From Candidatus Accumulibacter aalborgensis (lineage in GTDB: Bacteria; Pseudomonadota; Gammaproteobacteria; Burkholderiales; Rhodocyclaceae): a stretch of DNA of 64,000 nucleotides. The position numbers were made by a program, and so were the translations under genes. Below the pieces are notes generated by a model that saw only the letters and a list, made by a program, of their open reading frames with translations, was not told where the DNA came from and made no database searches. The stretch's first letter is position 1; each line of letters begins with the position of its first letter. The DNA lies in contig NZ_FLQX01000094.1 in NCBI RefSeq assembly GCF_900089955.1, forward strand, positions 62,001-126,000. Direction: 5' to 3'. Positions 5,412 to 18,581 of this stretch are shown here, piece after piece.

Positions 5412-6514
5412 TCCACTGTGCCGCAAGGCGCGTGCGACGGTGATAGGGGCGCATCATCCGTAATGCGATCGAACGAAGCACGCAGCCGCGGCAGATAGCT
5501 CGCGTATCCCTCCTGCACGAACACGACCAATGCCTCACGCACCCGACAGCGCAGATCCCAGGCATTGGACGCATCACGGGCGCTAACCAGCGCGCGAACC
5601 TGCATCGCGCGCTCGGTCGTTTCGGTGACCTGCAACAGGCACACGCGGCCATCCCATTCCGGTGCGGCGCGGCAGACGCGCTCCAGCTCCTGCCGCAAGG
5701 GTTCGAGCGGCATGGCGTAGTCCACCCACAAAAGCACCGTGCCGATAAGTTGTGAGGTCGATCGTGTCCAGTTCTGGAACGGATGCTGGATGAACCATTC
5801 CAGCGGCACGATCAGCCGGCGCTCGTCCCAGATGCGCACCACGACGTAGCTTCCTGTGATCTCCTCGACCTTGCCCCACTCTCCTTCGACGATCAGTACG
5901 TCGTCGATGCGGATCGGTTGCGTGAGAGCGATCTGCAGCCCGGCAATCAGGTTCCCCAGCACCGGTCGGGCAGCGATGCCCGCAACCAGCCCGGCGACGC
6001 CGGCCGAGGCGAGAAGGCTGGCGCCGATCTGGCGCACGCCGGGGAAGGTCATCAGAATCGAAGCTACGCCAACCAGCCCGACAAGGCTCATCACGGTGCG
6101 TGATAGCACCCTCGCCTGGGTGTGCACGCTGCGCGCCCGCAGGTTGTCGGCGATATCGGCCGGATGCAGGCTGATCACCGCCTCGGCCATGCCCTTGACA
6201 AGGCGGATGCAAAGAAAGGTCAGAACGGCGATCAGGGCGATGCTCAGAAGATGGCGCAGCGGATTGATCAGGAACAGGGAATCCGGTGCATCGCCTGCCG
6301 CGATCTGGACCAGGAGCAATGGCAGAAGCAGTTGCACGGGACGCCGGCCGTAGGTAACCAGGCTGCCGGCGACGACGAAACCGCTGGAAACGCGGCATGC
6401 TATCCGATGCAGCAGGGCATGGACGAGCAAGCCGATCAGGATCGCCAGCGAGCACTGCAGCCCCAGTTCCAGCCATGGCCGGCTATTCGCCAGCGAAAAT
6501 TCAAGCCAGTTCAT
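5408..6514 (-). CDS. MscS-family mechanosensitive ion channel
   Basis: Probably a tension-gated inner-membrane channel that releases solutes on osmotic downshock. With the start at 6514 the protein has 368 residues; this start is preferred because GGAGGAGG lies directly before it, while a weaker ATG lies at 6532. Several membrane helices fill the first half. The pore-lining and beta-domain region is typical (GNLIAGLQIALTQPIRIDDV, then EGEWGKVEEITG and RRLIVPLEWF). It lies between a truncated glk, with which it overlaps by four bases, and an nhaA remnant, and appears to be the only intact gene in this eroded patch. Confidence 0.85.
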   Translation of the reverse strand: MNWLEFSLANSRPWLELGLQCSLAILIGLLVHALLHRIACRVSSGFVVAGSLVTYGRRPVQLLLPLLLVQIAAGDAPDSLFLINPLRHLLSIALIAVLTFLCIRLVKGMAEAVISLHPADIADNLRARSVHTQARVLSRTVMSLVGLVGVASILMTFPGVRQIGASLLASAGVAGLVAGIAARPVLGNLIAGLQIALTQPIRIDDVLIVEGEWGKVEEITGSYVVVRIWDERRLIVPLEWFIQHPFQNWTRSTSQLIGTVLLWVDYAMPLEPLRQELERVCRAAPEWDGRVCLLQVTETTERAMQVRALVSARDASNAWDLRCRVREALVVFVQEGYASYLPRLRASFDRITDDAPLSPSHAPCGTVE

Positions 6515-6547: not shown

Positions 6548-6886
6548 CTAAAGCTCGGTCCGGCAGCGGTGCCAGGCACGGAGCGCCGGAATGTCGCCGC
6601 GGTCGCCGACCCCGGAAAATCTAGTCTGAATGCGCCTCTCGCCGCCAGTACGTTCTCCATACTTGCCAAAAAATCTCAGCCAGACAAAGCCAAATACGCC
6701 GGCTGCCAGGGAAGCCAATAAAATTGTCATCTTCGAGGCGTTTATGGTCTCCGGACTAGCTGGAAAAGCGAGATTGGTGATGAAGATCGATATCGTAAAG
6801 CCGATGCCGCCAAAAATCCCCGCGCCAACCAGATGCGACCACTTCAACTCGGATGGCAAACGGCACATTCCGCTCGCCGCCGCCAA
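6548..6886 (-). pseudogene. nhaA: C-terminal remnant of Na+/H+ antiporter NhaA
   Basis: About 70 residues match the end of NhaA: the segment LVGAGIFGGIGFTISIFITN and the following NLAFPASPETINASKMTILL correspond to the last two helices of that antiporter. The upstream three quarters of the gene (a normal NhaA has roughly 390-440 residues) are absent, because slyX begins less than 90 bases further on. There is no ATG and no credible start; only a TTG opens the frame. It is read as a 5'-deleted relic that ends shortly before mscS. Confidence 0.7.
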
Positions 6887-6972
6887 GTGGGTCCACTTTA
6901 CCTTGACGACAAGGTCGAGAACAAGCCGCCGCGCTCCTCCACCCGCCCCTGTACAGCGGCGGGGGACCGCGC

Positions 6973-7170
6973 TCAGTAATGCGGCGGAATCTGCTCGCGC
7001 GGGTTTTCGGCAACGACCGGCCCCTCCTGCAGTTGCTGGTAAAGATGGCGCAGTTGCTGCTGCAGCAGTTCGATCTGCTGCTGTTGCCGGTAGACCGCGA
7101 GATTGAGTTCGTCGACCAGATCCTCGGTAAGGCTGATCCTGGTTTCGAGTTCCGTGAGGCGTTCTTCCAT
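6973..7170 (-). CDS. slyX: SlyX family protein
   Basis: A 65-residue coiled-coil protein of the SlyX family. It has the typical N-terminus MEERLTELETRISLTEDLVD, a heptad-like Leu/Gln region (QQQQIELLQQQLRHLYQQL) and the proline-rich C-terminal tail ending PPHY. The family's role is undefined. It follows the phosphoesterase gene by 41 bases on the same strand. Downstream lies a GC-rich imperfect hairpin (about 6930-6968) that may stop transcription. Confidence 0.88.
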   Translation of the reverse strand: MEERLTELETRISLTEDLVDELNLAVYRQQQQIELLQQQLRHLYQQLQEGPVVAENPREQIPPHY

Positions 7171-7211
7171 CAGTGACTCCCTGGATTCGATTGGCTTTGC
7201 GGTTGACGGGG

Positions 7212-8657
7212 TTACAGGGCGTTGATGATCGACGTCAAGGCGTCCACCGGGTAGCTCAGCGGAATCATGGTGTGGTCAACGCGGGTGAAGACGCCGACCT
7301 GCTCGGGATGGGCGCTGAACAGCACGTGGTGATTGGCAATCCCGTCCACATCGAGCCAAAGAGTTCCCTCGCGGTCGATCGGCGTATGGCCCACGATGAA
7401 CGGCGTATCCGCTGCAACCTGCAGCGCGCGGCGAAAGCGCTTGACATCACGCCGGTTATAGCCCTGCGGCCGGTTCTGCCGATACAGGCGATTGTTGATC
7501 AACTCGGAGATCAGCGCCGGGTAACGATGGATCTGCACCAGCATCTCCAGGCTGACTTTGGACTTCGGCGCCGCAGCATGACAGGCGACGAAGTCGGACG
7601 ACACGACCACATAGGGCAAGAGCCCGTAAAACTCGGCCATGGCTTTCAGATAGACCGTTCCCCGTCGCTCACTCAGTTCCTTTGCCCATAGGAGGCCCTG
7701 CGGAATCCCGTCCTTGGCAATATTCTCGGAGAACGAATCGTGGTTGCCGCGCACATAGAACACCTGCTCCGGAAAATGCAGCTTGAGGCGGAAAATGAGA
7801 TCCATCAGCAACATCGAGCCTTCCATTTCCCTGAGTTGCCCGTCGACCTCGCAATGCACCGCGTCACCGAGGATGACCAGGGCTGCACTGCCTGCCTCCA
7901 GCGCATCGAGGAAGGCATTCTGGCTGAGCACGGTCAACAAATTGTCGACCTGGGCATGCAGGTCGGCGACCACGATAGGCGTCAGCTCCTGGGGCAGGGC
8001 CAGCACTCCGCCGGGTAGTCCGCGATCGTCCCTGGGGCGATGAACTTCCTGACGCAATACTTCGTTGACCTGCGCAATGAGCGGCAAAGCCTCGTCTCTC
8101 GGCAGTAACTGAATCGGGCCGCCGAAGATCTCGCGCAGCAGCCGAAGCTTGTTCACCCGAATCGACTTGACTTCGTCGCGTACCGGCGCGATGGCGGTGC
8201 CGGCGTCGCTCAGGTTGCGAAATACCAGCGCGTCGCGGCCGTAGATCACGACCAGGTGCTGCTCGTCAATCGCCGACGGATAATCAAAGAGCGCTTGCTG
8301 GACAGCATCCGCCGACCCCAGGGCCAGCCAACTCTTTGGGGTCAGGCGCAGGAAGCCGCTGATCCGGCGCAGATGGGTGCGCGGATCGACGATGATGAAG
8401 CTGCCGACACTGGTCGGCTCGCCGCGCGAGTTCAGACGGGTTTCCGGGTAGAGATGAAGCCGCCTGTCGTTCAGACCGAGGGTGATTTCGATCGGAATAC
8501 CGTCGAGCGGAACCCGTACCTTGGTGCTGCCGAGCCGATAGGCATCGCCCAGCTTGAGGTTGTGACCCCAGCCGAAGCCCAGCCGGGCAGAAAGTGCTTT
8601 CAGCCAGGCGAGAAGGCTCGAAATACTGAACAGTCGTCGCGTGGCGGTCCTTTTCAC
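7212..8657 (-). CDS. Metallophosphoesterase with FHA-like N-terminal domain
   Basis: A 481-residue cytoplasmic protein. The C-terminal half has the calcineurin-like phosphoesterase motifs in order: VVADLHA (D-x-H), ILGDAVHCE (GD), RGNHDSF (GNHD), an isolated His in FVACHAAAP, and VGHTP. This order is like PPP-type protein phosphatases and ApaH relatives. The region around residues 110-165 looks like an FHA fold: LGS, then DEQHLVV, then FRNLSDAGTAI. The substrate is unknown. Its ATG overlaps the stop of the upstream P-loop gene by four bases, so the two are translationally coupled and may act together as a kinase/phosphatase or NTPase/phosphatase pair. The FHA assignment is by eye. Confidence 0.75.
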   Translation of the reverse strand: MKRTATRRLFSISSLLAWLKALSARLGFGWGHNLKLGDAYRLGSTKVRVPLDGIPIEITLGLNDRRLHLYPETRLNSRGEPTSVGSFIIVDPRTHLRRISGFLRLTPKSWLALGSADAVQQALFDYPSAIDEQHLVVIYGRDALVFRNLSDAGTAIAPVRDEVKSIRVNKLRLLREIFGGPIQLLPRDEALPLIAQVNEVLRQEVHRPRDDRGLPGGVLALPQELTPIVVADLHAQVDNLLTVLSQNAFLDALEAGSAALVILGDAVHCEVDGQLREMEGSMLLMDLIFRLKLHFPEQVFYVRGNHDSFSENIAKDGIPQGLLWAKELSERRGTVYLKAMAEFYGLLPYVVVSSDFVACHAAAPKSKVSLEMLVQIHRYPALISELINNRLYRQNRPQGYNRRDVKRFRRALQVAADTPFIVGHTPIDREGTLWLDVDGIANHHVLFSAHPEQVGVFTRVDHTMIPLSYPVDALTSIINAL

Positions 8658-12350: not shown

Positions 12351-13349
12351 CTACATGACTTTGGTCCCGATATACCAGAAGATCGCGGCGATCAGGCCCG
12401 CGGCCGGAATCGTCAGCACCCAGGCAACCATCAGGTTGGCGGTGATGGCCCAGCGCACCGCCTTGACATCGGTGGCCGCACCGACTCCGATGATCGCACC
12501 GGTGATGGTATGCGTCGTCGACACCGGAATGCCGCCAAACGTCGCCAGCGCCAAGGTGATCGCCCCGCCCATCGAAGCGCACGAACCACTGACCGCATTG
12601 AGCTTGGTGATCTTGGTGCCCATGGTCTTGACGATTCGCCAGCCACCGAGATACGTTCCCCAGGAGATCGCGAAATAGCACGCATAAATCACCCAGTTCG
12701 GCAGCGTCGCGACGTCCTTGGTTGCCACCCCGGCAGTGATCATCAGCAGCCAGATGATGCCGATCGTTTTTTGCGCATCATTCCCGCCGTGTGCCAGGCT
12801 GTAGGCACCGGCGGCGAACAACTGCGCCCCCTTGAAAAACTTCCCGGCCTTATACGGCGAGGTGCCTCGGAAGATCCAGGCCACCAGCACCATCAGCAAG
12901 CCGCCAATGATCACCCCGACCAGCGGCGAGATGATGATGAAAGCGAGGATCTTGCCGAAACCATCCCAGACGATCGGCGCCCCCGAACCGGCCTTGGCCA
13001 CGGTCGCTCCGACCAGGCCACCGACCAGCGCGTGCGACGACGACGACGGAATACCGTAGTACCACGTAATGATGTTCCAGGCCAGCGCCCCCACCAGCGC
13101 CCCGAAAATCACGTAATAATCGACGAAGGTCGGGTCAACCGTTCCCTTGCCGATCGTCGCCGCCACCTTGAGCTGGAACACCCACAGTGCGGCAAAGTTG
13201 AAGAACGCGGCAAACAACACCGCCTGTTTCGGGGTCAGGGCACCGGTCGCGACGATCGTCGAAATCGAGTTCGCGCCATCATGAAACCCGTTCATGAAGT
13301 CGAACGCCAGCGCGATTGCGATCAGCAACGCCAGCGTCCAGATGCTCAT
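12351..13349 (-). CDS. pit: PiT family inorganic phosphate transporter (second copy)
   Basis: A shorter PiT transporter of 332 residues from the ATG at 13349, chosen because GGAAGG lies just before it; an in-frame ATG at 13364 is possible. The signatures are FDFMNGFHDGANSISTIV at the N-terminus, HGGNDAQKTIGI in the second repeat, and the partner motifs PSSSSHALVGG and PVSTTHTITGA. The GFHDGAN form and the short length place it in a different PiT subfamily from the protein at 9340-10602. It is flanked on both sides by paralogous DUF47 genes on the same strand. Confidence 0.94.
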   Translation of the reverse strand: MSIWTLALLIAIALAFDFMNGFHDGANSISTIVATGALTPKQAVLFAAFFNFAALWVFQLKVAATIGKGTVDPTFVDYYVIFGALVGALAWNIITWYYGIPSSSSHALVGGLVGATVAKAGSGAPIVWDGFGKILAFIIISPLVGVIIGGLLMVLVAWIFRGTSPYKAGKFFKGAQLFAAGAYSLAHGGNDAQKTIGIIWLLMITAGVATKDVATLPNWVIYACYFAISWGTYLGGWRIVKTMGTKITKLNAVSGSCASMGGAITLALATFGGIPVSTTHTITGAIIGVGAATDVKAVRWAITANLMVAWVLTIPAAGLIAAIFWYIGTKVM

Positions 13350-13377
13350 ATTTAGGCCTTCCATTTTCCGCAGCCTC

Positions 13378-14016
13378 TCAGGAATTTTCGATCAGGATCT
13401 CTTCGATCATCTTGGCCGCTTCCTGGCAAGAGTCGAGGACCGCTTCCTGAAGAGAGTAGAACTCCCTCATCTTCATCGTCTGCCAGATGTTGGCGCCGTC
13501 CGCGAACAAAGCGGTGATCGCCTTGTGCTGCACTTTGTCGGCTTTCGACTCGATGGCCTCGATCTCCTTGCACAGATTGAGCGTTTCCGCACCGCGAGCC
13601 TTGTCGCCCAGAGCAGCCACCGCACGGTTGAGGCGCAGGCACGCGTCGGCGCTCAAGGACGCCATTTCGCGCGCCTCCACCGTCGACTGTGTGATGCTGT
13701 ACATTCCCAGCGCATTGGCCACGCTCTGCAGCATATTGAGCGTCGTGTCGAGATCGGTGATCAGCGCGTGGATCTGATCGCGGTTGATCGGCGTGGTGAA
13801 CGACTGGTGCAAGCGCCCGATCACCTTGGCCTTGATCTGATCGCCATTCTGCTCATGTTGATTGACTTCCGCGACCAGCGCGGAAACGTCGGCACTGCCA
13901 TCGCCCAGCCCATTAATCAGACGCAAGGTTGCGTTGGCCCCGGCCACCACCTGCTCCGAGTGCGCGGCGAGAAGTTCAAAGAATTCCTTGCGTTGCGGCA
14001 TCAAACTACTAAACAT
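13378..14016 (-). CDS. DUF47 (PhoU-like) protein, first gene of the second PiT operon
   Basis: A 212-residue DUF47 protein, paralogous to 11592-12227 (shared start EFFELLAAHSE, shared helical pattern, matching end EEILIENS). A GGGAGG site at the correct distance fixes the ATG at 14016. It leads the operon DUF47-pit-DUF47; the pit start is 28 bases away. Having two near-identical accessory proteins around one transporter suggests a local duplication. They may form hetero-oligomers or respond to different signals. Confidence 0.87.
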   Translation of the reverse strand: MFSSLMPQRKEFFELLAAHSEQVVAGANATLRLINGLGDGSADVSALVAEVNQHEQNGDQIKAKVIGRLHQSFTTPINRDQIHALITDLDTTLNMLQSVANALGMYSITQSTVEAREMASLSADACLRLNRAVAALGDKARGAETLNLCKEIEAIESKADKVQHKAITALFADGANIWQTMKMREFYSLQEAVLDSCQEAAKMIEEILIENS

Positions 14017-14034
14017 ACGACCTCCCTTGGTTAT

Positions 14035-14183: not shown

Positions 14184-14732
14184 TCAGCCCTTCTTCTTGC
14201 GTTTGTCGCCCTTCTGTTTGGCCGCCTTGTCGATTTTCTTTACCGGCTCCGCCTTGGCAGATTTCTTGCCAACCGCATCTCTTGCGGTCACTCGCGAGGA
14301 CTTCGCCTGCGCCTTGGCCGGCTTCTGCGCCCCAACCGGCTGAGCTTCGACGACAGCTTGCCGCCGGGTCGGCTGCGCTTGTGCAGCAGCCACCGGCGCA
14401 GCGACGGGATCGGCAGATCTCACGGCGCCTGCCCTTGCCGCTGTGACCTTCTTCCCGGCCTTGGCGGGCGCATTCGTAGTAGTAGGGGTCGGCGCCACCT
14501 CGGCAACCGGGCTGGCGCCCACCTTGCGAGTCGGTGCAGCGGCAGCCGGGCGCGGCCGTGCCTGCTCAGCACCGGGCTGGCTCGCCGGCGCGGCGGCCGG
14601 AGCTTGGTCCTCCGGTGCGGCGACAAGCGGAATGTCGGTGGCCAACAGACGCTGGGCGAGCGACTCGTCTTCCTTCTTCAGGCTGGCCCGCAGAGCGGTC
14701 TTGTTGGTGTTGGCGGGTGTGGTTGTGGTCAT
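14184..14732 (-). CDS. Disordered Ala/Pro/Lys-rich basic protein coupled to ParA
   Basis: A 182-residue protein of very low complexity. Residues 1-45 are mixed (ALRASLKKEDESLAQRLLAT may form a helix). The rest is dominated by Ala, Pro, Lys, Thr and Arg, and it ends in a strongly basic tail (AAKQKGDKRKKKG). No fold, signal or membrane segment is evident. Its ATG overlaps the parA stop by one base (TGATG), so the two products are made together. By position and composition it could be an adaptor that lets the ParA ATPase position a cargo, or a histone H1/PhaM-like DNA- or granule-binding protein. These are inferences. Confidence 0.7.
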   Translation of the reverse strand: MTTTTPANTNKTALRASLKKEDESLAQRLLATDIPLVAAPEDQAPAAAPASQPGAEQARPRPAAAAPTRKVGASPVAEVAPTPTTTNAPAKAGKKVTAARAGAVRSADPVAAPVAAAQAQPTRRQAVVEAQPVGAQKPAKAQAKSSRVTARDAVGKKSAKAEPVKKIDKAAKQKGDKRKKKG

Positions 14733-15397
14733 CAGGATTCTCCCAGTTGTTCAAGAACGGCAGCAATCAGCTTGCGAACTTCTTGCTGTGCGGCTATGGC
14801 GGCGCTGCCGAGCTGAAAGACTGATGCGCCGATGACCGCACTCTGCGCATAAGCGTTACGCTGGGAAAGCATCACATCGAGTATGGGCAACGTAAATTCA
14901 TGTAACAAGTCAAGCACATCGACGGCCAGCGCGGTGTTCTGCACGCGGTTGGGGAGAATGCAGCCGTGCAGGCGATGGCTTTGTTCCATGCGATTGAGGA
15001 TCAGTCGTTCGACGGCGAGCGTCGACCACAGGTCGGTCGGGCTCGGCACCGCAGGGATGATCGCCAGATGCGCCACGGCCAGCGCAGCCAGCGTAGACGG
15101 GTGGTAGATCGACGGTGGAGTGTCGAGAACGACGTAATCCGCTTCGGTCTGCAACTCAGTAACGTGCTTGATCAGTTCCAGGCCCGACATCTTGCGGACA
15201 TCGAGTTGCAGATCGGAATCGAGCAAGGGAGCCGACTCCGCCCAGCGAAAAGCGCTTTCCTGCGGGTCGAGATCAACCAGCAGCACCGAGGCACCGATAG
15301 CGTGAAAACCGCCCCCCAGTTGCATCGCGACGGTGGTCTTGCCGGCGCCACCCTTTTGCGAGACGACAGCGATCACCCGGCCTAGCGACATTGACAT
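14732..15397 (-). CDS. Orphan ParA/MinD-type ATPase
   Basis: A 221-residue ParA-family ATPase. The deviant Walker A is QKGGAGKTT near the N-terminus, followed by switch region LLVDLDPQESA and the Walker B-like segment VVLDTPPS. There is no N-terminal helix-turn-helix, as in small chromosomal or cargo-positioning ParAs. No parB gene or parS-like cluster is nearby; the only partner is the disordered protein downstream. The start at 15397 is preferred over an open frame to 15592, because a promoter (15450-15477) and palindromes occupy that longer region. Likely role: ATP-driven positioning of a plasmid-like, chromosomal or granule cargo on the nucleoid. Confidence 0.85.
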   Translation of the reverse strand: MSMSLGRVIAVVSQKGGAGKTTVAMQLGGGFHAIGASVLLVDLDPQESAFRWAESAPLLDSDLQLDVRKMSGLELIKHVTELQTEADYVVLDTPPSIYHPSTLAALAVAHLAIIPAVPSPTDLWSTLAVERLILNRMEQSHRLHGCILPNRVQNTALAVDVLDLLHEFTLPILDVMLSQRNAYAQSAVIGASVFQLGSAAIAAQQEVRKLIAAVLEQLGES

Positions 15398-15449
15398 GGC
15401 ACCCGTTTCATAAGGAATTTGTTGATGTGAAGAGTCTGCATAACTTTCA

Positions 15450-15477
15450 ATTATGCCAGCATGCGGAAGAGCGACAA
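15450..15477 (-). promoter_or_regulatory. Probable sigma70 promoter of the parA pair
   Basis: On the minus strand TTGTCG (-35) and CATAAT (-10) are spaced by 16 bases. The predicted start site is about 46 bases before the parA ATG at 15397. GGCCC-containing palindromes lie immediately upstream and could be operators. Confidence 0.5.
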
Positions 15478-15483
15478 GCCTGA

Positions 15484-15519
15484 AATGGCCCGGAAAAGGG
15501 CCATGAAATGGGCCATTTT
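15484..15519. repeat. GGGCCAT palindromes upstream of parA
   Basis: ATGGCCC and GGGCCAT form a hairpin around GGAAAA, and a third copy of the unit (AAATGGGCCATTT) follows within five bases. The group lies directly upstream of the parA -35 element. A run of six T on the plus strand would suit a plus-strand terminator, but no plus-strand gene ends here, so an operator or binding site for the parA promoter is more likely. Confidence 0.5.
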
Positions 15520-15860: not shown

Positions 15861-18581
15861 TCAGCCGTCGGCGAGCAGGTTGAGCGTTCTGGCCCTGAAT
15901 ACCGCGTCGTGGCGACTCGAGGCGCGCAGCTTGCGGTAGATGTTCTGCGTATGCCGCTTGACGGTCGCCCGAGAAATACACAGTTCCTCCGAGATTTCAA
16001 CGTTACTCAGCCGGGCCGCGAGCAGTTTGAGAATTTTCAGCTCCCGCCGCGTCAGGTCGGTGCCCACCCGTTGACGACCGGCGCTCACCAGCCAGTCGTC
16101 TTTGAACGCCGAAAGAATCTGGGCAACGTAGCGCGCCTGCCCCTTGTCGGCTTCCAGGCGCTTGAGCAGCGGCGCGAGTTCCTGCCCCAGATCGACAAAC
16201 AGGCGAATGAAGCCCCCCGGCTGCGCGACTGCCAGTGCACGACCGAGCAGGTCGGTGGCTGCCGCCTCCTCGCCCTGGGCATGGTGCAGCAAGGCCTGCA
16301 AGGCCAGCACTTCGATCAGGAACCTGAGGTTATGCCTGGCCGAAAGCCTTGCCGCCAGCAGTTGCAGCAGGCGACCGGCCTGCTCGCGGCTATCGACCGT
16401 TCCCTCGGCCATCCACACCCGGATCAGCGTCAGGTGGGGAGCGCTGAAGAAGCGGTAGTCGAACTGAACTGGGCCCGGATCAAAGCTCCGCGCCCAGTCC
16501 AGCGCGTCGTTGATCCGGCCCTGACGCAGCGCGAGGTCTGCCTGACAGGCCCGAGCGCGAAACAGTGCCGGAGAATTCTTGTTTTGTACAAGACGCTCGC
16601 AGACCGCATCGACGATCTCGCGCGCCCGCTCCGCCTGGCCGAGCGCCTGGTAGACGGCAGCCAGGGCGAACGAGATTTCAGTCCGGTAGCCAAGCTGCGG
16701 CGCCTGCTGGGCGGCAATTGCCGGCAGCAGCGTAGCCTCCGCCGGCGCGAGTTCATTCCGCTGATACTGCACCAGGCCAAGAAAGTAGCGCCCCAGCGCC
16801 GAGTTGATTTGACTGCCGAAGCTGGCATCACTCAGCGGGTGCTTGAGATTGGCGGTCCACTGGAGCGCCGACAGGTCGGCAGCCATCCAGTCGATAAAAC
16901 ACAGCGCGACCACCAAGCTTGCCTGACAGATATCAATCGGACCCGATGCCCGGACCAGGGCATCATGGATGCTCTGACGCGCGCCGCCCAGGTCGCCGCT
17001 GAGCTGCCGCGCTCCAGCCAGAACCGCCTGTGCCGTGACGCGCGCCTGCACGCAGTCGGTCGCCAATCGTTGCAGGGCTTGCTCGGCACACGCCAGGGCC
17101 AGGTCGGCGCACCCCTCCAGATAGTGTTGCAGGCTGCGCAGCGCGAGAACATTGCCGTGCAGCCAATCCGAGCGCAGCGTGTCGGGAGCGGGGTCATGGC
17201 TATCGAGCAAGGCCTCGATACGGTCGAGAACGGCAGGCGTCTCGCGGTGGCGGCCCTGGTGATGCATCAGCCAGGCCTTGAGCAGCAGCAGTTGGGGATC
17301 GTCCTCGACGGCGTCAAGCGGCAACAGGCGCAGGCAACGGTCGAGGCGCTGTCGTTGCTCGCGGTTGATGAGCAGGTTGTGATGGCGGGCCAGCAGCTCC
17401 GTCGCCGCCGCTACGCCGGCGCCGGCGAGCATCTGCGGGATCGCTTCCTCCAGCAGACCCTGCGTCTCCAGCCAGGCGGCTGCCCGTTGATGCAGCTCGG
17501 CGATCTCGGCCGCGGCATGGTGCATCCGTAGTTCCCGCTGCAGAAACTCTCCGAAAAGGCGGTGGTAGCGATGCCACTCGAGCCGATCGTCAACGGCGCT
17601 GGCGAGCACTGCCCCGCTGACCACCAGGTGCATGAAAGCCTGGCCGCCAAATTCTTCACCGCCCGCCGCCGTCCCTTTGCCGAGCAAGGCGTCGCACAAG
17701 GGGGCACAGAAGCGGTCGACGACCGATGTCCTGAGCAGGCAATCACGCACGACTGCGGGCTGCTGGGAGAGCACCTCCTCGACGAAATAGGGCTGCAAAG
17801 GCGGCATTTGACCGCTGATGCAGCGCCCGTAATCGTTCTCGTCACACTCCCCTGACGCGTCGACGGCGCGTCCCTGGCGCAGCGCCAAACCCGCCAGGCG
17901 AACAGCAACCGGCCATCCGTCGGTGGCGTTCTGCAGGCTGGCCAGTGCCGCTCCCGGGACGGCGCGTCCGGCGCAGCGCTCGATCAGGGTGGCGCTTTCC
18001 AGCGCTGAAAACTGGAGGTCCCGCGTACGAATGTCGCTCATCATCCCATGCACGCGTAGCGCCCCGAGAGACAAGCGGGGCTCCTGGCGCGTGATGATCA
18101 CCAGATGAAGAGCGCTCGACGGGCGCGCCAGCAAGCGATCGAGCAAGGCGTGTGCTCCTGACGAGTGGAGGCGATGAAAGTCGTCGAGGACGACGACAAG
18201 GGGCGCAGACAACGCGTCCAGATCGTTGCTCAGGCTGCTGGCGAGAACCGGCAACGGCAACCGCTGCCCGGAATTGAGGTGGTCCAGAGTCTCGCCACAA
18301 GCGTCGACAAACGCGCTCCGCACGGCGGCCACCAAGTAGCCGAGAAGGACCAGCGGATCGCTGTCTTCACTGTCTAGCGAGAGCCAGACGGACGAACCGT
18401 CGCGGCGGCCGAGCCAGTCGGCAACCAGGGAAGTCTTGCCATAGCCGGCCGGTGCCGAGAGCAAGGTCAAGGGTAGTTCACTGCCCGCTTCCAGCCGGGC
18501 CAGCAACTCGCTGCGGACGACGAAGTCATGGACGATCCGGGGACAGTGCAGCTTGCTGCACGTGATGTGGACCAATGGCAT
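15861..18581 (-). CDS. MalT-type ATP-binding LuxR family transcriptional regulator (LAL)
   Basis: A 906-residue regulator with MalT architecture. The N-terminal STAND-type NTPase has Walker A in LLSAPAGYGKTSLV (about residues 40-53) and Walker B in VVLDDFHRLH. A long helical, TPR-like middle region, about residues 330-830, is likely to sense a ligand. The C-terminal LuxR helix-turn-helix contains LTRRELKILKLLA and CISRATVKRHTQNIYRKL. Such proteins activate genes when an inducer and ATP drive assembly; the inducer here is unknown. It starts 2 bases after the acyltransferase gene, so it is the last gene of a ylqF-acyltransferase operon, an unusual place for this regulator class. Confidence 0.9.
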   Translation of the reverse strand: MPLVHITCSKLHCPRIVHDFVVRSELLARLEAGSELPLTLLSAPAGYGKTSLVADWLGRRDGSSVWLSLDSEDSDPLVLLGYLVAAVRSAFVDACGETLDHLNSGQRLPLPVLASSLSNDLDALSAPLVVVLDDFHRLHSSGAHALLDRLLARPSSALHLVIITRQEPRLSLGALRVHGMMSDIRTRDLQFSALESATLIERCAGRAVPGAALASLQNATDGWPVAVRLAGLALRQGRAVDASGECDENDYGRCISGQMPPLQPYFVEEVLSQQPAVVRDCLLRTSVVDRFCAPLCDALLGKGTAAGGEEFGGQAFMHLVVSGAVLASAVDDRLEWHRYHRLFGEFLQRELRMHHAAAEIAELHQRAAAWLETQGLLEEAIPQMLAGAGVAAATELLARHHNLLINREQRQRLDRCLRLLPLDAVEDDPQLLLLKAWLMHHQGRHRETPAVLDRIEALLDSHDPAPDTLRSDWLHGNVLALRSLQHYLEGCADLALACAEQALQRLATDCVQARVTAQAVLAGARQLSGDLGGARQSIHDALVRASGPIDICQASLVVALCFIDWMAADLSALQWTANLKHPLSDASFGSQINSALGRYFLGLVQYQRNELAPAEATLLPAIAAQQAPQLGYRTEISFALAAVYQALGQAERAREIVDAVCERLVQNKNSPALFRARACQADLALRQGRINDALDWARSFDPGPVQFDYRFFSAPHLTLIRVWMAEGTVDSREQAGRLLQLLAARLSARHNLRFLIEVLALQALLHHAQGEEAAATDLLGRALAVAQPGGFIRLFVDLGQELAPLLKRLEADKGQARYVAQILSAFKDDWLVSAGRQRVGTDLTRRELKILKLLAARLSNVEISEELCISRATVKRHTQNIYRKLRASSRHDAVFRARTLNLLADG

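Follow-up and report, generated by a model that had tools for sequence, protein, structure and literature searches.

The described systems closest to the locus analysed here are the type Ib partition pair ParF-ParG of plasmid TP228 and the McdA-McdB pair of alpha-carboxysomes. ParG joins a flexible, arginine-bearing N terminus to a C-terminal RHH domain, as described in an excerpt of PMC7308502, and McdB proteins have a C terminus with an invariant tryptophan or aromatic residue, according to an excerpt of PMC11321042. Canonical chromosomal ParABS loci also use a ParA-class ATPase. The tether proteins AlgP, PhaF and PhaM, which are of Lys/Ala/Pro-rich make-up, act without a known ParA. They carry basic disordered or histone-like DNA-binding segments, as stated in part of PMC13052382.

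The locus lies in a 64,000-nt stretch (hereafter the window) of contig NZ_FLQX01000094.1 of Candidatus Accumulibacter aalborgensis. On the minus strand, positions 14732 to 15397 encode a ParA-type ATPase of 221 amino acids, without an N-terminal HTH and with a deviant Walker A motif, QKGGAGKTT, that starts near residue 14. The protein matches Pfam AAA_31 with 65.2 bits, VirC1, CbiA and MipZ models match as well, and its score with the NCBIfam model ParA_partition (NF041546), 175.6 bits, falls just below the curated cut-off of 180; among proteins of solved structure, a ParA and ParF match it best (E about 4e-14). The parA stop codon shares one base (TGATG) with the start of a second minus-strand ORF, 14184 to 14732, which encodes an Ala/Pro/Lys-rich protein of 182 amino acids, here called the adaptor (A+P+K 48%, net charge +20, no F, W or Y residue). 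No parB lies next to this parA. The same genome holds a separate canonical parA-parB locus (L001), beside mnmG-rsmG as judged by inspection of the translations, and in both respects the window locus differs from ParABS. An earlier note on this DNA, which had described an orphan ParA with this Walker A motif joined through a one-base overlap to a 182-residue partner, was accurate on these points.

By its sequence, the architecture of the pair resembles that of ParF-ParG more than that of McdA-McdB. As in ParF-ParG, a small ParA without HTH is followed by a downstream partner that bears arginine in its N terminus and ends, in the copies of relatives but not in that of the window, in an RHH domain. 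Unlike ParF-ParG, the Accumulibacter pair is chromosomal and present in every genome examined of one genus, has an adaptor linker of 88 to 224 residues (24 loci), and possesses a ParA from a distinct clade. With alpha-McdA-McdB it shares a ParA that is about one-third identical and a short disordered adaptor with a basic N-terminal segment, and a basic disordered segment is also what the window adaptor has in common with the AlgP, PhaF and PhaM tethers. Unlike McdA-McdB, it adjoins no microcompartment genes among the nine neighbouring proteins profiled, and the adaptor lacks a C-terminal RVWPD or tryptophan motif, the relatives having an RHH domain instead; the window adaptor has no aromatic residue that could correspond to the one in McdB. 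The analogy to McdA-McdB drawn in the earlier note thus holds for a ParA with a disordered adaptor and extends to McdA relatives, but a McdB-like nature of the adaptor is not supported. With moderate confidence, we take the pair for a two-gene ParA-RHH module, fixed on the chromosome and operating in the manner of type Ib partition (ParF-ParG, delta-omega).

All 28 Candidatus Accumulibacter genomes contain this parA, 27 of them at 83 to 94% identity to the window copy. At this level of identity it is absent from 33 genomes outside the genus; 30%-identity matches were met in one of these 33 and, as a second gene, in one Accumulibacter. A search found the partner beside parA in 27 of the 28 genomes (56 of 140 first-look candidates scored). 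In every one of the 28 loci, the parA stop and the following start codon overlap, sharing a single base in 23 and four bases in 5. The 182-residue ORF is therefore a genuine gene, and co-conservation of the two genes, which the earlier note had suggested as a check, is borne out. Between the window ParA and that of L049, 14 of 221 codons differ non-synonymously and 80 synonymously, and this predominance of synonymous differences indicates that ParA is under purifying selection; three comparisons involving L058 were left out of the set as being out of register. Three adaptors are not readable whole, in L062 because of a contig end, in L066 because of a run of N and in L056 because of a frame shift at a poly-C run near the start of the adaptor gene. 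In L072, it is the ParA frame that is shifted near its start; the shifts in L056 and L072 may be sequencing errors or real changes. The pair is real and conserved, we found no description of it among open-licence PMC papers, and its function is what we infer below.

In the relatives, the adaptor continues past the linker for about 65 further residues that include a conserved domain, KLVRYTVELLKSEEAAIEALR.ELSKAAGWAASKSDILRAGVRLFAEQ, and a Lys-rich tail follows. Profile comparisons suggest that this is probably an RHH domain. A partner from another genus of the family, L092, scores 22.3 bits with Pfam RHH_1 (gathering score 20.5) over nearly the whole profile. A profile made from 19 Accumulibacter domains alone matches all 14 complete family partners, L092 at E 9e-7 and the rest at E 1e-14 to 0.003, so that the assignment carries over. 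At E<=0.1, 8 of the 18 domain rows have a match to ParD_antitoxin, which is an RHH family, and 5 have one to RHH_1, while two unrelated families match one row each in the same scan; no scanned domain except that of L092 reaches a Pfam gathering threshold. Among solved structures, ParD antitoxins are the best matches of the RHH-domain profile (E 0.0024 to 0.004). For 8 of 10 assorted domains, four of which came from proteins not chosen for a nearby ParA, RHH models gave no match at E<=1. Two AlphaFold2 monomer models of the C-terminal domain show two helices in a hairpin and lack a beta ribbon (pLDDT 74.7 and pTM 0.42 for the second), and Foldseek with the first of them returned nothing at E<=0.001. 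RHH is an obligate, intertwined dimer, and the alignments used for modelling were shallow (13 and 19 rows from 21 usable named adaptor sequences); for these reasons, we give the sequence evidence more weight than the models.

The RHH domain is present in 26 of 27 assessable Accumulibacter loci, whole in 24 and as its first part, the ribbon segment, in L056 and L066, and the window is the only one without it. The window adaptor ends in KGDKRKKKG, has one residue after KGDK where L049 has 65, and is in total 64 codons shorter than the L049 protein. The corresponding 192 nt were lost in frame at a junction between KGDK and RKKKG (positions 14199 to 14204, minus strand), removing the RHH domain. 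The low-complexity partner with a strongly basic tail that the earlier note described is thus the window version of a protein that has about 65 more residues in relatives; the tail is there, but as a deletion scar and not as the native end. Elsewhere in the window genome, neither a one-sequence search nor a profile search (24 of 65 first-look candidates scored) gave a match to the domain, and the same profile found it at E 2e-24 to 2e-28 in all eight other Accumulibacter genomes searched; misses are possible in such genome searches, here and in the search for the partner, where large candidate sets were scored in part. The loss could also be an artefact of the assembly, so that the real strain would carry a full adaptor, which is compatible with the ParA-RHH module. 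That the window is the sole exception among 27 assessable loci and comes from a fragmented genome (4.7 Mb in 181 contigs) gives this idea some substance, but the junction is clean and in frame, lacks long flanking repeats and lies inside a contig of 204,871 bases, and on balance we regard an artefact as unlikely, though well worth keeping in mind.

Toward its N terminus the window adaptor carries a conserved motif, NKTALRASLKKEDESLAQRL (14646 to 14705, minus strand), which is a candidate ParA-activating or arginine-finger segment. The partners of the family have in common a motif of the form ALRxxLxxEDxxLxxRL; in an alignment of 40 rows, L, E and the final R never vary, and the R of LR occurs in 39 rows. 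A helix spanning residues 8 to 33 is predicted in the model of a relative's adaptor. Type Ib partners have a flexible N-terminal tail with an arginine finger, and the conserved Arg-bearing segment is a candidate for such a finger. In some family members, for example L088 and L092, the linker that follows is short and has a lower A/P/K content; the whole partner of L092 measures 119 amino acids.

Of 249 family genomes, 58, representing 17 of 68 genera, encode a ParA homologue at E<=1e-25. When the 9 Accumulibacter genomes are set aside, 43 of the other 240, from 12 other genera, encode a ParA 48 to 60% identical to that of the window, and 6 further genomes encode one of 35 to 39% identity. We read 20 family loci from other genera (5 to 13 kb each), of which 17 belong to the window ParA clade. 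Within these 17, a complete adjacent partner is present in 14; in L084 the partner is cut by the contig end, the contig of L089 ends at parA, and L077 has no adjacent partner but an RHH ORF about 1.5 kb away. In the ParA tree, Accumulibacter and the 17 Rhodocyclaceae rows form one clade with support of 100/99, the McdA group and the phasin-like group described below each form one clade, and the plasmid ParF/ParG rows lie elsewhere, with the reservation that the deep order is poorly resolved, that the placement of ParF is unsure and that Soj, ParF, L096, L152, L094, L141 and L153 sit on long branches.

Of 399 genomes from the order, 34 encode a ParA homologue at E<=1e-30, and the type of partner varies by ParA clade. 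By inspection, partners are RHH-like in L115, L146 and L147. Short partners that end in RVWPD or RIWPD were found in L137, L139, L140, L141 and L145 and also in the family locus L095. Alpha-carboxysome McdAs are among these ParA relatives, at 33 to 39% identity to the window ParA, which provides the McdA analogy with an evolutionary basis. L136 is a carboxysome operon by its Pfam matches (CsoS2, BMC, ferritin and CbbQ), L139 and L141 are carboxysome-like by inspection and plasmid L150 by annotation, and L095, L137, L138, L140 and L145 are McdA-McdB-like by ParA clade or partner ending only. Linkage to a parB or to a plasmid replication module, which the earlier note named as an observation that would speak against a cargo-positioning pair, was not seen in the in-clade loci read; ParAs that pair with ParB (L143, L144 and L151 to L153) fall outside the clade. 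In L116 to L118 and L120 (family f43), ParA is about 40% identical and the adjacent downstream partner is not recognizable. A close plasmid relative of ParA was sought and not found, the best of 90 matched records having 39.7% identity; on one plasmid (L154, ParA 34% identical), an annotated ParG comes next. A viral origin was likewise set aside, since the scan met no viral contig encoding a close ParA relative.

The promoter region of parA contains candidate regulatory sites. A sigma-70-like promoter, TTGTCG-16-CATAAT with an extended -10 TG, is present at 15450 to 15477 (minus strand; one found versus 0.4 expected in shuffled sequences), and its -10 region stays conserved across the alignment of 28 loci. 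Over the -10 element lies a perfect inverted repeat, GCATAA-N7-TTATGC (15438 to 15456, minus strand). Outside the S-type loci, 19 of 22 have this repeat with at least five of six pairs, 13 of them perfect and 6 with five; the 22 comprise 20 loci whose ribbon carries R, the window, and L062, whose ribbon is unread. In the six S-type loci, where the ribbon has R replaced by S and E by K, the repeat is absent at this threshold (0/6), and a degenerate repeat with four of six pairs at N8 was seen by eye in five of them. The six S-type loci are related, so that few evolutionary events lie behind the match between repeat and ribbon. Genome-wide, all 10 perfect matches to GGCATAAT-N5-GTTATGC, in 10 genomes, are at parA promoters, as are 20 of 55 matches with up to two mismatches; the 35 remaining two-mismatch matches compare with 34 for a reversed control and give no sign of further operator sites. 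Upstream of parA in 7 of 20 loci from other genera we observed TAATA-N1-3-TATTA; the 230,180 nt searched beyond the 200 nt that precede parA contain no copy of it. We read both palindromes as candidate single RHH operators. Unlike the centromere of ParF-ParG, which consists of repeated partner-binding sites, the window promoter has one perfect palindrome, and we recognized no multi-copy centromere or repeated site array, although sites of other sequence could escape such a search. The statement in the earlier note that no parS-like cluster lies nearby was therefore too strong in view of the two promoter signals, even if no repeated array is present.

The second signal is a pair of boxes, ATGGCCC-N5-ATGGCCC, at 15498 to 15516 (minus strand). 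The exact sequence occurs in 16 of 28 genomes, once each and solely at parA, the reversed control giving 9 matches in 5 genomes. We dropped the boxes as the first choice for an RHH operator because they track a MalT-like (LAL) LuxR-family regulator gene, which lies upstream in the window (15861 to 18581, minus strand) and is a candidate controller of the parA operon. This gene is directly upstream of parA in 20 of 28 genus loci; the boxes, with mismatches allowed, are found in 20 of 20 loci with the gene and in 0 of 8 without it, and for this reason they are more likely the site of the MalT-like regulator than that of the adaptor. L056 and L069 lack the gene and the boxes but keep the GCATAA repeat and an R-type ribbon, which separates the two promoter signals. 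The MalT-like regulator evolves faster than parA (54 to 70% identity to relatives) and, together with the boxes, is missing from 8 of 28 loci.

If the pair works as a type Ib-like module, ParA in its ATP state would bind the nucleoid non-specifically, as other members of its family suggest, and the Arg-bearing N-terminal segment of the adaptor would stimulate ATP hydrolysis by ParA. The long Ala/Pro/Lys linker may act as a flexible spacer and weak DNA binder. The C-terminal RHH domain would dimerize and bind one palindromic operator over the adaptor's own promoter, and this binding could account for both autoregulation and the tethering of a chromosomal site or of associated complexes. The window allele would keep its contact with ParA and, since the RHH domain was lost in frame, should have lost specific DNA binding, provided that the assembly is correct at this point. 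DNA is the favoured cargo because of the RHH domain, and granules are a possible one. If this is right, an uncultured genus that is economically central through phosphorus removal keeps, apart from ParABS, a second and dedicated chromosomal ParA system of a kind otherwise known mainly from plasmids. Such a system would supply named proteins through which to study the positioning of a chromosomal locus or of cargo inside the cell, together with an allele that has naturally lost a domain.

As an alternative, the pair may position storage granules: the Lys/Ala/Pro linker would coat polyphosphate or PHA granules, the N terminus would engage ParA, the RHH domain would tether DNA or dimerize, and ParA would consequently space the granules on the nucleoid. 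The pair is present throughout the genus of an archetypal polyphosphate and PHA accumulator, the linker composition is as in AlgP or PhaF/PhaM-type proteins, and known PHB and polyphosphate positioners are nucleoid-binding proteins, of which the Pha ones are said to lack ParA homology (part of PMC13052382). The earlier note had linked such a cargo to the phosphate transport genes close by. Downstream of the window pair are two PiT (PHO4) and three DUF47 genes, beginning with a DUF47/PhoU-like gene (13378 to 14019, minus strand) and a PiT gene (12351 to 13364, minus strand), neither of which we judged to be part of the system; the other genes identified around the pair encode the MalT-like regulator, a methyltransferase, a GTPase and YihG. 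In 27 of 28 genus loci the pair is followed by PiT or DUF47 genes, the exception being L062, which ends too early; ylqF, yihG and the methyltransferase gene are the usual upstream genes, several loci being short. The PiT neighbourhood pointed out in the earlier note is thus correct for the window, but in the 20 loci of other genera none of the window's neighbour genes, including PiT and DUF47, is near parA. Short linkers of lower A/P/K content, as in L092 and L088, also count against a coating role. Nor does storage metabolism discriminate: phasins are encoded elsewhere in the window genome, and PhaC is found in 241 of 249 family genomes as against parA in 58, which makes their co-occurrence uninformative, and we discarded it as evidence on cargo (the 8 genomes without PhaC include none of the 58 with parA, against about 2 expected by chance). 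The polyphosphate or PHA cargo considered in the earlier note hence has no direct support, and we regard granule positioning by this pair as doubtful.

More distant ParAs bear on the same question. The carboxysome cousins with their McdB-like partners show that the broad group of ParAs can serve protein organelles. In one genus (g108, family f41; L128 to L135), the C terminus of the adaptor is not RHH but a helical, weakly phasin-like domain in seven loci (L128 to L131 and L133 to L135), L132 being short, and all 8 genomes encode PhaC; this pair is possibly a ParA-driven PHA granule positioner. Pfam Phasin_2 matches one of five phasin-like partners scanned at E 0.017, and in a genome search it matches proteins beside two of eight parAs at E 0.002 and 0.014, the latter being the protein of the Pfam match. 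Aligned by hhalign, seven of the eight partners score 29 (E 0.0012), or 22 (E 0.0003) under another option, at a probability of only 17 to 20%; as controls, 20 column-shuffled alignments score 8.4 to 12.7 and, under the other option, DUF47 scores 1.9 and RHH partners score 14.9. We treat the phasin-like partners, a weak match, as a lead only. Together with the carboxysome and ParB partners, they suggest exchangeable cargo domains, so that one ParA scaffold may be re-aimed at new cargos when the last domain of the adaptor is swapped.

Another reading takes the locus as the relic of a plasmid-type partition system, an autoregulated operon with little function whose decay is under way in the window genome. 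The missing RHH domain there, a single operator-like site in place of a centromere array, patchy presence across the family and the shifted ParA frame of L072 would fit this. However, ParA is 83 to 94% identical to that of 27 other genomes with mostly synonymous differences, the overlap and N-terminal motif are intact in the window, and the best plasmid match has 39.7% identity, which together leave a relic improbable. We put just as little faith in a joint reading of a modular adaptor superfamily. Its members would share a short Arg-bearing N-terminal segment that works a small ParA and a disordered spacer rich in Ala, Pro and Lys, and would differ in the cargo domain at the C terminus: RHH in Rhodocyclaceae, where DNA is the cargo, a tryptophan motif where it is the alpha-carboxysome, and in another family a phasin-like bundle directed at PHA granules. 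In this reading Accumulibacter would space storage granules on the nucleoid, and RHH loss would have turned the window adaptor from DNA cargo to binding of the polyanion polyphosphate.

The RHH profile also retrieved other RHH proteins (L097 to L102 and L104 to L110). Most of them are Lys/Pro/Ala-rich in their N-terminal part, many end in IKTGRPxK, and Accumulibacter itself has a shorter RHH protein of the same sort (L100, L101). In L103, two adaptor-like genes (5647 to 6165, plus strand, and 6799 to 7602, minus strand), each with the N-terminal motif and an RHH domain, lie beside one ParA, and perhaps two adaptors serve one ATPase there.
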